Below, piece after piece: positions 9,471-35,809 of a DNA stretch of 52,047 nt. Position numbers and translations under genes: made by a program. Under the pieces are notes generated by a model. The model had not been told where the DNA came from. It searched no databases and worked only from the letters and a program-made list of their open reading frames with translations. The DNA is from a virus, in the IMG/VR virus record IMGVR_UViG_3300042475_001650, positions 1 to 52,047 of that record; one strand, 5' to 3'. Each line of letters starts with the position of its first letter. The first letter of the stretch is position 1.

Positions 9471-10765
9471 TGGCGCAGTATAGTTTCGGGACGATCGACC
9501 CGAACACCAAGAGCGGGACCGCGCTCGCGACAGATCTGAACTCATGGCGGGACGCCGTCAACTCGACGCACTCGGGATCGACAGCGCCGAGCTACGTCAC
9601 GAGCTCGATGCTCTGGTCGGACACGACCTCGGCGAACTTCGAGCTCAAGATGTATGACGGCGCGCAATGGATCCCGGTCGCGGTGCTCGATGCGACGAAC
9701 AACGTCGCTCGGGTCGCGGTCGACAGCGCGGAGACGAGCTACATCACCTCGACGACCGCAGGGCAGATCCGCCATGTGATCGCGAACACGACCGTCGCGA
9801 CGATGCGATCCACCGGCTTGCAGTTCAACATTGCCGCGCCGGTGATCTCGGACAGCAACGCGAACGAGCTGCTCTCGTTCACGACGGTCGCGAGCGCGGT
9901 GAACCACATCGACATCGCGAACGCTGCGACCGGGGGCCGACCGACGATCTCGACGATCGGAAGCGACACGAACATCGATCTGTTCATCACGGCCAAGGGA
10001 ACGGGCATCGTCTACGCCTACTCGGAGACGGCCGCGACGAACACCGTGATCGATGTCGCGCGCCTCGAGAGCCGCAGCACCGGGACACCGGCGGCGGGCA
10101 TCGGCGCGGGCCTCCTGTTCGCGGTCGAGACGGCCGCAAATAACTTCGAGATCGGCGCGCGCATCGAGGCGATCACGACCGACGTCACAGGGGCCTCGGA
10201 GGACTTCGACCTCGTTTTCAAGACGATGGCCGCAGGCGCGGCAGCGGCCGAGAGGATGCGGATCGGCTCGACCGGTCTCGTCAACGTCACCTCGCTTGCG
10301 ATCGGGGGGACGACAATTACCTCAACGGCCGCAGAGCTGAACTTTATGGACGGGGTCACCTCGAACGTCCAAACCCAGCTCAATGCGAAGGCGAACCTCG
10401 CGTCGCCGACGTTCACGGGCGTCCCGGCCGCGCCGACAGCAGCGGTCGGGACCAACACAACTCAGCTTGCAACGACCGCCTTTGTCGGAGCGGAGATCGC
10501 GGCAGATCTTGCAGGGCTCGCCGCTGGGGCAGTCGGAAGCTACGCGTTCTTGAGAGACCAATCCAATAACGCAGACACCGCCTTTGGAACCACGTTGGCT
10601 GGCAGCAATTTATTCCCCGCAGGTTTACGGGCTCTCACCACCGGTACTCCTACAATAGTTGAGGAAGCCACCGCCGTATCAGGCACATGGCGCTGCATGG
10701 GTTTCTCTGACTACCTAAGTATTGGTCCCCAACGACCGGTAACCCTCTGGCTAAGGATTTCGTGA
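9470..10765 (+). CDS. Tail fibre protein, version A
   Basis: A 431-aa protein that starts at an ATG overlapping the J stop (TAATG). The first ~105 residues (FGTIDPNTKSGTALATDLNSW to TSTTAGQI) match the second-version fibre at 46055 and probably attach it to the tip. After that the two diverge completely. The body is Thr/Ala/Ser-rich with fibre-type phrases (TITSTAAELNFMDGVTSNV, SPTFTGVPAAPTAAVGTNTTQLATTAFV). The last ~70 codons are visibly lower in GC, as expected for an exchanged receptor-binding tip. No S74 autochaperone is present; a separate chaperone-like gene follows. Confidence 0.85.
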   Translation: MAQYSFGTIDPNTKSGTALATDLNSWRDAVNSTHSGSTAPSYVTSSMLWSDTTSANFELKMYDGAQWIPVAVLDATNNVARVAVDSAETSYITSTTAGQIRHVIANTTVATMRSTGLQFNIAAPVISDSNANELLSFTTVASAVNHIDIANAATGGRPTISTIGSDTNIDLFITAKGTGIVYAYSETAATNTVIDVARLESRSTGTPAAGIGAGLLFAVETAANNFEIGARIEAITTDVTGASEDFDLVFKTMAAGAAAAERMRIGSTGLVNVTSLAIGGTTITSTAAELNFMDGVTSNVQTQLNAKANLASPTFTGVPAAPTAAVGTNTTQLATTAFVGAEIAADLAGLAAGAVGSYAFLRDQSNNADTAFGTTLAGSNLFPAGLRALTTGTPTIVEEATAVSGTWRCMGFSDYLSIGPQRPVTLWLRIS

Positions 10766-14421: not shown

Positions 14422-15291
14422 ATGAGCCTTTTGACCGAAGCCCAGCTCGCGGCGATGATCCCGACGAACAAGGAGATCCCCGGTTGGTGCGCCGCGCTGA
14501 ACGAGATGCTCCCGAAGTATGAGATCACGACCGACCGGCGGATCGCCGGGTTCGTGGCTCAGTGCGCGCACGAGAGCGCGGACTTCAAGCTCCTCGAGGA
14601 GAACCTCAACTATCGCGAGGCGACGCTCCTGAAGGTCTTCCCGCGCTATTTCGGGCCGGGCAAGCAGAGCCCGGCCGAGTATGCGGGCAAGCCCGAGAAG
14701 ATCGCGAACTATGTCTACATGGACAAACACCGCTCGGCCGGTGGCGCGCTCGGCAATGTGAACGAGGGAGACGGGTGGCTGTTCCGGGGCAAGGGGCTCA
14801 AGCAGGTCACCGGCCGGGCAAATCACGCGGCCTTTGGCAAGACGATCGGCATGACCGCAGAGCAGGCGGCAGAGTATCTCCTCACCAAGAAAGGCGCGCT
14901 CGAGAGCGCGCTCTGGTTCTGGGGATCTCGGAACCTGAACGCGGTCGCGGACACCGGCGACGTCGTGAAGCTCACGAAGATCATCAACGGGGGCGACATC
15001 GGCCTCGCCGATCGCCAAGCACGCTATGCGAAGGCGATGGCGGTCCTCGGGGGTAAGGTCGACGCTCCCGCGCCGACTTCGGCCTCTGCGGCCGCTCCTG
15101 CGGCGTCTGCGACGCTCCGCGTCGGATCGAAGGGGGATCTGGTGGAGCGCGTGCAGAAGGCGCTCGGGATCGCTGCGGACGGGGACTTCGGTCCCGGCAC
15201 CGAGCGCGCGGTCAAGGCGTGGCAACAGGCGAACGGCTTGACAGCGGACGGGATCGTCGGCCCGAAGACGCTCGAGAAGCTGATCGGCTGA
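14422..15291 (+). CDS. Endolysin: GH19 chitinase-like catalytic domain plus peptidoglycan-binding domain
   Basis: A 289-aa lysin. The GH19-type domain (about 1-205) has the catalytic Glu51 in AQCAHESADF and a second Glu near residue 60 in EENLNY, then GNVNEGDGWLFRGKGLKQVTG. A Pro/Ala/Ser linker (APAPTSASAAAPAASA) leads to a C-terminal PG_binding_1 domain (about 228-289: LRVGSKGDLVERVQKALG, FGPGTERAVKAWQQANG, DGIVGPKTLEKLIG). There is no signal peptide, so it needs the holin. It is the last plus-strand gene before a hairpin terminator. Its second copy would lie beyond the window end. Confidence 0.93.
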   Translation: MSLLTEAQLAAMIPTNKEIPGWCAALNEMLPKYEITTDRRIAGFVAQCAHESADFKLLEENLNYREATLLKVFPRYFGPGKQSPAEYAGKPEKIANYVYMDKHRSAGGALGNVNEGDGWLFRGKGLKQVTGRANHAAFGKTIGMTAEQAAEYLLTKKGALESALWFWGSRNLNAVADTGDVVKLTKIINGGDIGLADRQARYAKAMAVLGGKVDAPAPTSASAAAPAASATLRVGSKGDLVERVQKALGIAADGDFGPGTERAVKAWQQANGLTADGIVGPKTLEKLIG

Positions 15292-19398: not shown

Positions 19399-19790
19399 AG
19401 ATTGTGCCCAGCGGGTTCCGGCGCGGATCAAAGAATAAATATGGCGCGAAGCCGACGCAGATCGGGGACATCACGTTCGACAGCAAGCTCGAAGCCCAGC
19501 GATGGTGCGAGCTCCAACTCCTCGAGCGGGGCCGGGAGATCTCGGATCTTCGGCGGCAGGTGGCGATCGAGCTCCTGGGTCAGTTTCGCCCGCTATTCAC
19601 GCGCACCGGGCGCAAGATGAAGCTAACGTTCGACTTCGCCTATATCGAGGACGGCGTGCAGATCTATGAAGATGCTAAGGGGATGCCGACGCGCGACTAT
19701 GAGGTCCGCGTGGCCGTGGCCCGCGCGATGGGTCTCGAGATCCGCGAGGTGACAAAAACAAAGCTGGAACCGACCGGCAGACGAAGGTAA
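19395..19790 (+). CDS. DUF1064 nuclease-like protein
   Basis: A 131-aa protein matching DUF1064: NKYGAKPTQIGDITFDSKLEAQRW near the N-terminus, then LTFDFAYIEDGVQIYEDAKG. The last segment gives a PD-(D/E)xK-type core (Asp in FDF, Glu-Asp-Ala-Lys), consistent with a restriction-endonuclease-like fold reported for phage proteins of this family. It is encoded in the early replication region, so a Holliday-junction or replication-linked nuclease is plausible. Coupled to the HTH gene. Confidence 0.82.
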   Translation: MKIVPSGFRRGSKNKYGAKPTQIGDITFDSKLEAQRWCELQLLERGREISDLRRQVAIELLGQFRPLFTRTGRKMKLTFDFAYIEDGVQIYEDAKGMPTRDYEVRVAVARAMGLEIREVTKTKLEPTGRRR

Positions 19791-19796
19791 AGTATC

Positions 19797-19912
19797 GGTG
19801 CGGGGAGCGTTCTGGCAGGCGCTCGACCCGCACCAATGCCGCAGCGGGGGAGAAACCGCTGATCTCGGCAAAGCGCATGGAAGGGATGCGCTGCTCGCAA
19901 GATAGCATTGCG
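19797..19912 (+). ncRNA. Structured non-coding segment with four consecutive stem-loops
   Basis: The 157-base gap before the replication gene holds no convincing reading frame but four stems in a row. P1 at 19797-19834: 8 bp GGTGCGGG/CCCGCACC plus 5 bp GAGCG/CGCTC with a 2-nt GA bulge and 10-nt loop. P2 at 19837-19870: TGCCG/CGGCA then CAGCGG/CCGCTG with a 4-nt bulge. P3 at 19872-19892: AGCGCAT/ATGCGCT. P4 at 19896-19912: CGCAA/TTGCG. A ribosome binding site (AAAGGAGG) follows. It could be a leader RNA, an antiterminator-type RNA or part of a replication origin; I recognise no known RNA family. Confidence 0.5.
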
Positions 19913-19947
19913 GGTGGTGTCTCCACAACAATAAAGGAGGTGCCAAG

Positions 19948-20664
19948 ATGCACAGTTTCGATCCACAGATAGCAGCGCGCGTCGGCGTCAATGCTGCCGT
20001 GCTTTATCAGAATATAGTCTGGTGGTGCGCTAAGAACGCCGCGAACAGACATAACCAGCACGACGGCAGGTTCTGGACCTACAACAGCGTCAAGGCATGG
20101 GCAGAGCTCTTTCCGTATCTCTCAGCGAAACAGATCAGATCTTCGCTCGATCGGCTGGAGGAGGAGAAGCTGATTTTGTCAGGATGCTTTAACGCCTCGG
20201 CCTATGATCGGACCAAATGGTATTGCCCAGAGACGCAACCCGATTTGCCCATAAAGGCAAATGAAGTTGACCTACTGGGCGAACCAATACCAGATATTAA
20301 CCCAGATATAAAACCAGATCTTAAAACACGAGGGGAGCAGATCCAGATCTCGGCGACGTTATCGCTTTGGGCTTCTCCAGAGGCCGTTGCGAGCTTCATC
20401 GCTTATCGCAAGCGGTCTAAGGCAAAGGCGCTGACCGTCACCGCAGCCAAGAGGCTAGCGGCAAACCTTCAGGAAATATTCAACGCCGGTGGAGATACGG
20501 ATGACGCACTTGGTCTCGCAGAAGAACGCGGTTGGCAATCAATCAAGCCGGAGTGGTATTTCAACGACAAGCAGCGAGCTCAGCGAGGAGCAGATCGACA
20601 AGGGTCTGGAATGGCTGCGGCGTTTGCCGCAGTTGCCGCGCGATCAACTCCCCGCGAAGGTTGA
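19948..20664 (+). CDS. Phage replication protein with winged-helix domain (initiator-like)
   Basis: A 238-aa protein with a strong ribosome binding site. N-terminal LYQNIVWWCAKNAANRH, FWTYNSVKAWAELFPYLSAK and RSSLDRLEEEKLIL form the winged-helix domain seen in phage replication (replisome organiser-like) proteins. A variable linker (PDINPDIKPDLKTRG) precedes a C-terminal domain with EERGWQSIKPEWYFND. It is preceded by the hairpin-rich segment and followed by genes for DNA metabolism. The last 164 bp overlap the next gene in another frame, which is unusual. Confidence 0.75.
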   Translation: MHSFDPQIAARVGVNAAVLYQNIVWWCAKNAANRHNQHDGRFWTYNSVKAWAELFPYLSAKQIRSSLDRLEEEKLILSGCFNASAYDRTKWYCPETQPDLPIKANEVDLLGEPIPDINPDIKPDLKTRGEQIQISATLSLWASPEAVASFIAYRKRSKAKALTVTAAKRLAANLQEIFNAGGDTDDALGLAEERGWQSIKPEWYFNDKQRAQRGADRQGSGMAAAFAAVAARSTPREG

Positions 20665-35522: not shown

Positions 35523-35809
35523 TGAAAGTCGAGCAGAGATCTTTCCAGAAGTCGGACCCGCTCTTTGCGTTCCGCTCGTTCGTGGCTCACGGGCGGCGGT
35601 TCAACAGAGGCGCGGCGTTTGATTGGCAGGCCCTTGGCATTGCCGCAGAGAAGGTCGAGCTCCTATTCCGGGCGGGTAAGGTCCGCCATTACGCGCCCGG
35701 AAATCCTGAAATCGACCTCACAGACGAAGGCCTCGGCGAAAAGCTCGCCGAGGACGTTCCTGATCCCGCACCGGCTAAGAAGGCCAAAGCGAAGAAGGTG
35801 GCAGAATGA
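35519..35809 (+). CDS. Small protein after the capsid gene (96 aa)
   Basis: Coupled to the capsid gene (GCATGATG; two adjacent ATGs). It has VEQRSFQKSDPLFAFRSFVA and a Lys/Ala-rich tail PAPAKKAKAKKVAE. A small connector or head-tail linker is likely from position; no family assigned. Confidence 0.68.
   Translation: MMKVEQRSFQKSDPLFAFRSFVAHGRRFNRGAAFDWQALGIAAEKVELLFRAGKVRHYAPGNPEIDLTDEGLGEKLAEDVPDPAPAKKAKAKKVAE

Follow-up and report, generated by a model that had tools for sequence, protein, structure and literature searches.

A conserved five-hairpin leader RNA encloses the Shine-Dalgarno sequence of a phage replication initiator gene and probably controls its translation

The level of the initiator commonly sets the timing and the copy number of phage replication. 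A ribosome standby site has been described in the tisB mRNA of E. coli, which belongs to a chromosomal toxin gene and uses a single-stranded standby region together with a pseudoknot. In phage T4 the replication gene 32 is translationally and autogenously controlled via its mRNA leader (PMC535899). The put RNA of phage HK022 is an early-operon leader RNA of about 70 nt with two promoter-proximal stem-loops and a stem bulge, and putL lies just 3' of the promoter PL (PMC9378689). Here we describe a leader RNA in a 52,047-nt virus sequence (IMG/VR record IMGVR_UViG_3300042475_001650, hereafter the window) which resembles put as a probable leader of a phage early operon with a bulged stem and two stem-loops close to a promoter-like sequence, and which resembles the gene 32 leader in that a phage replication gene would be controlled translationally via its mRNA leader. 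It differs from put in having a third, fourth and fifth hairpin, in sequestering the Shine-Dalgarno (SD) sequence and in carrying an SD-like loop on the second hairpin, and an effect on polymerase is hypothetical here. Unlike tisB, it precedes a phage replication gene, its candidate SD-like element is a hairpin loop, and a pseudoknot found no support. Unlike the autogenous gene 32 system, it is retained when the type of initiator switches, and binding of the initiator is not indicated.

The window is a phage contig, and among phages its DNA matched only Ruegeria phage 45A6. The replication module lies on the + strand in the order HTH regulator, DUF1064/Holliday-junction-resolvase-like nuclease, 157-nt gap and initiator, followed 3' by an unknown gene, an HNH gene and SSB; the Erf and exonuclease genes are on the opposite strand. 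No coding sequence occupies the gap (19791-19947) on the + strand, and the initiator starts with the ATG at 19948.

The MFE fold of the leader (19797-19944, + strand) was a row of five hairpins, P1 to P5, with linkers nearly absent (Table 1). A sequence-only reading of the window had listed four stem-loops in this gap; all four are present, but P4 has 8 bp rather than 5, and the fifth hairpin, P5, which holds the SD, had been missed. In the comparison with shuffles that this reading proposed, the leader had an energy of -75.9 kcal/mol against -56.2 +/- 4.2 kcal/mol in dinucleotide shuffles (z = -4.67), and with their conservation in relatives the stem-loops before the replication gene proved real. 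The z value was -4.20 for the minus strand and -5.08 when the leader was folded as DNA. The density of structure had also been judged far above that of the rest of the window. The leader does belong to the top one percent by z, but it ranks 6th among 658 segments of the same size, ten of which have z <= -4 and 17 of which are more stable in raw energy. The decisive evidence for the leader is conservation and compensatory change, not hairpin density. Better z values than that of the leader were obtained for segments 9560-9716 and 35630-35786 (-6.4 and -5.7), and segment 15248-15404 contains a very stable hairpin, GGCCCTCGGGG..CCCCGGGGGCC, just 3' of an ORF ending at 15291, which is perhaps a terminator.

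Table 1. Positions of the leader hairpins, neighbouring elements and related short reading frames. Positions refer to the window unless a contig is named.
Feature	Position	Strand	Remark
Weak promoter-like sequence TGGAAC, 17 bp, TAAAGT	19765..19793	+	Ends 3 nt 5' of P1; shares sequence with the 3' end of the preceding gene
P1 hairpin, 8+7 bp, 2-nt GA bulge	19797..19834	+	Predicted 5' end of transcript; common to all leader classes
P2 two-part hairpin, 5+6 bp, 4-nt bulge	19837..19870	+	Purine loop GGGAGAAA, SD-like
P3 hairpin, 7 bp	19872..19892	+	MFE and alignment
P4 hairpin, 8 bp	19893..19915	+	MFE and alignment
P5 hairpin, 9 bp	19916..19944	+	GGUGUCUCC (19916-19924) pairs with GGAGGUGCC (19936-19944), enclosing the SD
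SD GGAGG of the replication initiator gene	19936..19940	+	Inside P5, paired with upstream CUCC
Replication initiator, O-like/DnaD-like	19948..20664	+	PHROG 11233, 678, 6493; gene led by the RNA
Candidate origin	20222..20325	+	Within initiator gene, outside leader; ATTTGCC/GGCAAAT repeats and AT-rich repeats
ATTTGCC..GGCAAAT palindrome	20243-20262		Inside initiator gene
Three 12-bp AT-rich tandem repeats	20289-20325		Inside initiator gene
Class B-type 16-codon uORFs	L160:1999-2150, L188:6232-6307, L190:127-201, L191:8556-8662, L337, L340, L342		SD in hairpin loop

The first relatives, with 26 distinct leaders, came from pattern scans of IMG/VR and from a search that used the initiator protein as query, and 26/26 gave the same row of hairpins when folded unconstrained. 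A covariance model (R1) recovered these 26 and, with added scans, also L140, L151, L155 and L204. The divergent leaders L271, L295 and L291 were matched by the covariance model at 74-89 bits. Together these leaders, referred to as class A, comprise 33 distinct sequences in viral contigs with identical P1-P5 architecture in all. L348, L350 and L351 were found by a later pattern scan.

In a structure-blind MAFFT alignment 97.6% of the cells were paired and 13 pairs showed two-sided change; such compensatory changes had been named beforehand as support for an RNA and their absence as speaking against it. The covariation score was 0.215 as compared to 0.113 in shuffles (0/500 as good) and 0.02-0.07 with the partners slid. 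Against a tree-based null, paired cells reached 95% with a null maximum of 72%, and three pairs were individually significant, which were also the top three among all column pairs. One pair reached E <= 0.05 in an earlier weighted covariation test of little power. The covariation tests had limited sensitivity, since much of the sample consists of close relatives and P2 shows little variation; the pairs of P2, nearly invariant in the close relatives, are therefore weakly tested.

At the level of single hairpins, the outer pairs of P1 swap between G-C, A-U, U-A and C-G among 32 distinct P1 sequences. The P1 bulge was GA or AA in 32/32 of them; the scan pattern fixes the bulge, and the structure-blind alignment shows it likewise. 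P2 has a compensatory change in L155 and L204 (CAGCGG:CCGCTG to CAGCAG:CTGCTG), and P3 exchanges GCGCA:TGCGC with GCACA:TGTGC and ACGCA:TGCGT. The arms of P4 are wholly replaced between relatives, with 29 G.U cells against 1 A.C; P4 and P5 together have 47 G.U against 1 A.C cells, G.U and A.C having been treated alike when P4 was registered. This excess of G.U over A.C indicates that the form under selection is the + strand as RNA, rather than its complement or a palindrome in the DNA. Judged from these comparisons between relatives, selection acts on the P1-P5 fold of the + strand RNA.

The leader precedes initiators starting with MHSFD, MSHYM (HTH_36) and MDD, and in L044 it is followed by a GIY-YIG-like (T5orf172/MUG113) gene at 2222-2506 and then by an MSHYM initiator. 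Being kept across initiator types, it is unlikely to be the binding site of one particular initiator, and its persistence through replacement of the initiator gene and of the DNA-binding domain encoded there gives it the look of a portable control module. The sequence-only reading had offered four options, a cis-acting leader, an antitermination RNA, a small RNA and the replication origin. The first is supported by the covariation, the strand-specific G.U wobbling and the conserved SD-sequestering hairpin, and the last is disfavoured. An origin, or a single-stranded DNA structure to which the neighbouring winged-helix initiator binds, would fit the position directly 5' of the initiator gene and the ability of the leader to fold as DNA. 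However, the variation in the leader is G.U-biased, the leader stays when the DNA-binding domain is exchanged, and no iterons or initiator binding sites were found in the leader itself. The iteron-like and AT-rich repeats lie instead within the rep gene, as they do in L020 and L021, where no leader match was found, and we regard an origin within the leader as extremely improbable. In lambda O the repeats are likewise mid-gene in the initiator. Similar repeats occur in many relatives, and L271, L295 and L291 are without the ATTTGCC/GGCAAAT repeat; as the repeats are in coding sequence, protein constraint contributes to their conservation.

In every relative the SD of the replication initiator lies within P5. 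The SD was paired with a probability of 0.75-1.00 in 33/33 leaders, and the energy of P5 ranged from -9.5 to -14.9 kcal/mol across them. In L295, L291, L348, L350 and L351 the SD is GGAAA and its partner UUUCC (GGAAAU:GUUUCC), so that SD and anti-SD have changed together; the SD is thus in a conserved helix with compensatory change, as in an SD-sequestering leader. Sequestered SDs are common and regulation need not follow. As the last hairpin hides the ribosome-binding site, the timing of initiator production is what the leader most likely controls, and we conclude that the phage replication operon probably begins with this RNA as a cis-acting 5' leader, which holds initiator translation off until P5 opens.

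Sequestration of the SD by the last hairpin is also a usual expression platform of riboswitches, and the loops and bulges are conserved, as they would be if a bound nucleotide or metabolite opened P5. The leader consists, however, of simple tandem hairpins with no multi-helix junction, the covariation scan detected no conserved alternative pairing, and class A was found in viral contigs only, which makes a riboswitch very improbable. A small RNA acting in trans, or a leader processed to a 3'-truncated form, is in our view nearly as improbable. The hairpins are dense and stable enough for it, and P1-P2 units in L358, L363 and L392 (isolate-derived contigs) have no obvious gene directly 3', but P5 with the SD is conserved in structure to within a few nt of the start codon, and no terminator-like U tract was seen 3' of the hairpins.

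Pairing of the P2 loop with the 16S tail has an energy of -6.9 kcal/mol in the window, and the loop is SD-like in nearly all relatives, with a match of about -10 kcal/mol in L295, L271 and L350. In L295 the 16S tail is matched better by the P2 loop (-10.4 kcal/mol) than by the real SD (-5.5 kcal/mol), which, in a small sample, fits ribosome standby. The loop is not SD-like in L023 and poor in L015, and this counts against standby. Most sequences, though not L023, would allow the P2 loop to form a pseudoknot with the P5 anti-SD; it was considered and dropped, as covariation gave no support. A uORF was sought within the class A leaders and was not conserved.

From these observations we infer translational control of the initiator by the leader, with P1 as the 5'-terminal element and the P2 loop as the standby site. 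Transcription would begin at about the 5' foot of P1, and P1 may cap and protect, or mark, the 5' end of the transcript. The closed P5 (about -10 to -15 kcal/mol) would hold initiator translation low. The SD-like P2 loop may offer the ribosome a place for standby or loading, and 30S would move in from there on opening of P5; alternatively, some factor may open P5. The expected outcome is a low and timed output of initiator, the protein that governs when the phage starts to replicate its DNA. With the ribosome-binding site of the initiator buried in a conserved RNA, the replication decision would gain an RNA-level switch, and P1 with its constant bulge is a concrete candidate binding site.

The promoter match of the window itself is weak. 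In 23 distinct upstream sequences, promoter-like hexamer pairs were enriched 5' of P1 (mean 7.8/12 as compared to 6.7/12 in shuffles), and T[AG]TA[AG]A was observed 10 times against 0.85 expected, which makes a transcription start at the 5' foot of P1 likely. This layout, with two stem-loops just 3' of a promoter-like sequence, resembles that of put 3' of its early promoter, and the bulge of P1 is constant whichever replication gene comes next. The put RNA binds the zinc-binding domain of the RNA polymerase beta' subunit and makes the enzyme read through terminators. P1 and P2 could accordingly form a put-like antitermination RNA that would bind RNA polymerase while nascent and allow read-through of the long replication operon, with P3-P5 as a separate translation module, and the promoter-proximal two-stem layout keeps this open for P1 and P2. 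On the other hand, P2 varies greatly between classes and its loop resembles an SD, the window has a single copy of the leader and not one per early operon, and the leader model finds no match in the put region of HK022, its best hit in that genome (11.9 bits, 1844-1983) falling within the gene for the terminase large subunit. Antitermination is therefore unlikely, though less so than the small RNA. By analogy with put, P1 could act on RNA polymerase in addition to the translational control that we favour.

With Rfam 15, no match at gathering score was found in the leader of the window or of the relatives, the only matches being tRNAs elsewhere; permissive settings added two chance matches far under the gathering score. 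A DNA search did not find the leader in cultured phages or plasmids. The P2-core pattern gave 79 matches in 84,980 genomes, and those inspected among the listed ones were chance hits that lay in coding sequence and had neither P1 nor P5. In about 800 Rhodobacteraceae and other order-level genomes the covariance model gave weak chance matches without the P1 core, a weak negative owing to stricter filters, and a P1-plus-GCAGC pattern gave 0 matches in 398 genomes, a set overlapping those 800. Within these negatives, all of them limited by filters and sampling, the leader family is unregistered and so far found in uncultured phages only.

Scans with P1 alone gave further arrangements. In class B, P1 is followed by a small hairpin with an SD-like loop, the counterpart of P2, and then by a uORF of 16-20 codons (e.g. 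MPKIYHNRLLPRKVAP), whose SD is supplied by the hairpin loop and whose stop overlaps the start of an O-like or DUF1376 replication gene. The 16-codon uORFs between P1 and the replication gene begin with M[PS]K[IL]YH in most cases and have an ATGA stop/start overlap. In class C, among the matches listed, P1 and an SD-loop hairpin are followed by the start codon, and the genes include Prim-Pol primases. Some P1-only matches may be due to chance or unrelated because the scan pattern fixes much of P1; the second hairpin with its SD-like loop recurs though it is absent from that pattern. We tentatively propose, as a possibility short of even odds, that mRNAs of phage replication operons widely begin with a modular unit of P1 and an SD-loop hairpin, in which P1 would be a new element recognized by the ribosome, by RNA polymerase or by an RNA-binding protein of the host. 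On this tentative proposal the unit would be common to O-like initiators, DUF1376 primosomal proteins and Prim-Pol primases, replication systems that are unrelated to one another, and would be followed by at least three arrangements, namely SD-sequestering P3-P5, an overlapping uORF of 16-20 codons, or the start codon directly. That P1 extends to replication systems of unrelated type suggests a host target common to them.

Near-identical P1-P2 units with the loop GAGGAGAAA were seen in isolate-derived viral contigs (L358, L363, L371, L377, L392, L402 and others). Their flanks vary, some are beside tRNA genes, no obvious gene lies directly 3', and they are possibly a repeated element. C4 antisense RNA was considered for these copies and gave no Rfam match, and this type of P1-P2 was found in 0 of 121 genomes. 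In L356, L362, L378, L381 and L383, P1 is followed by a hairpin of the type GGGGUGC-UGGGAGACUU-GCACCCC and AT-rich sequence, which looks like a separate P1 group.
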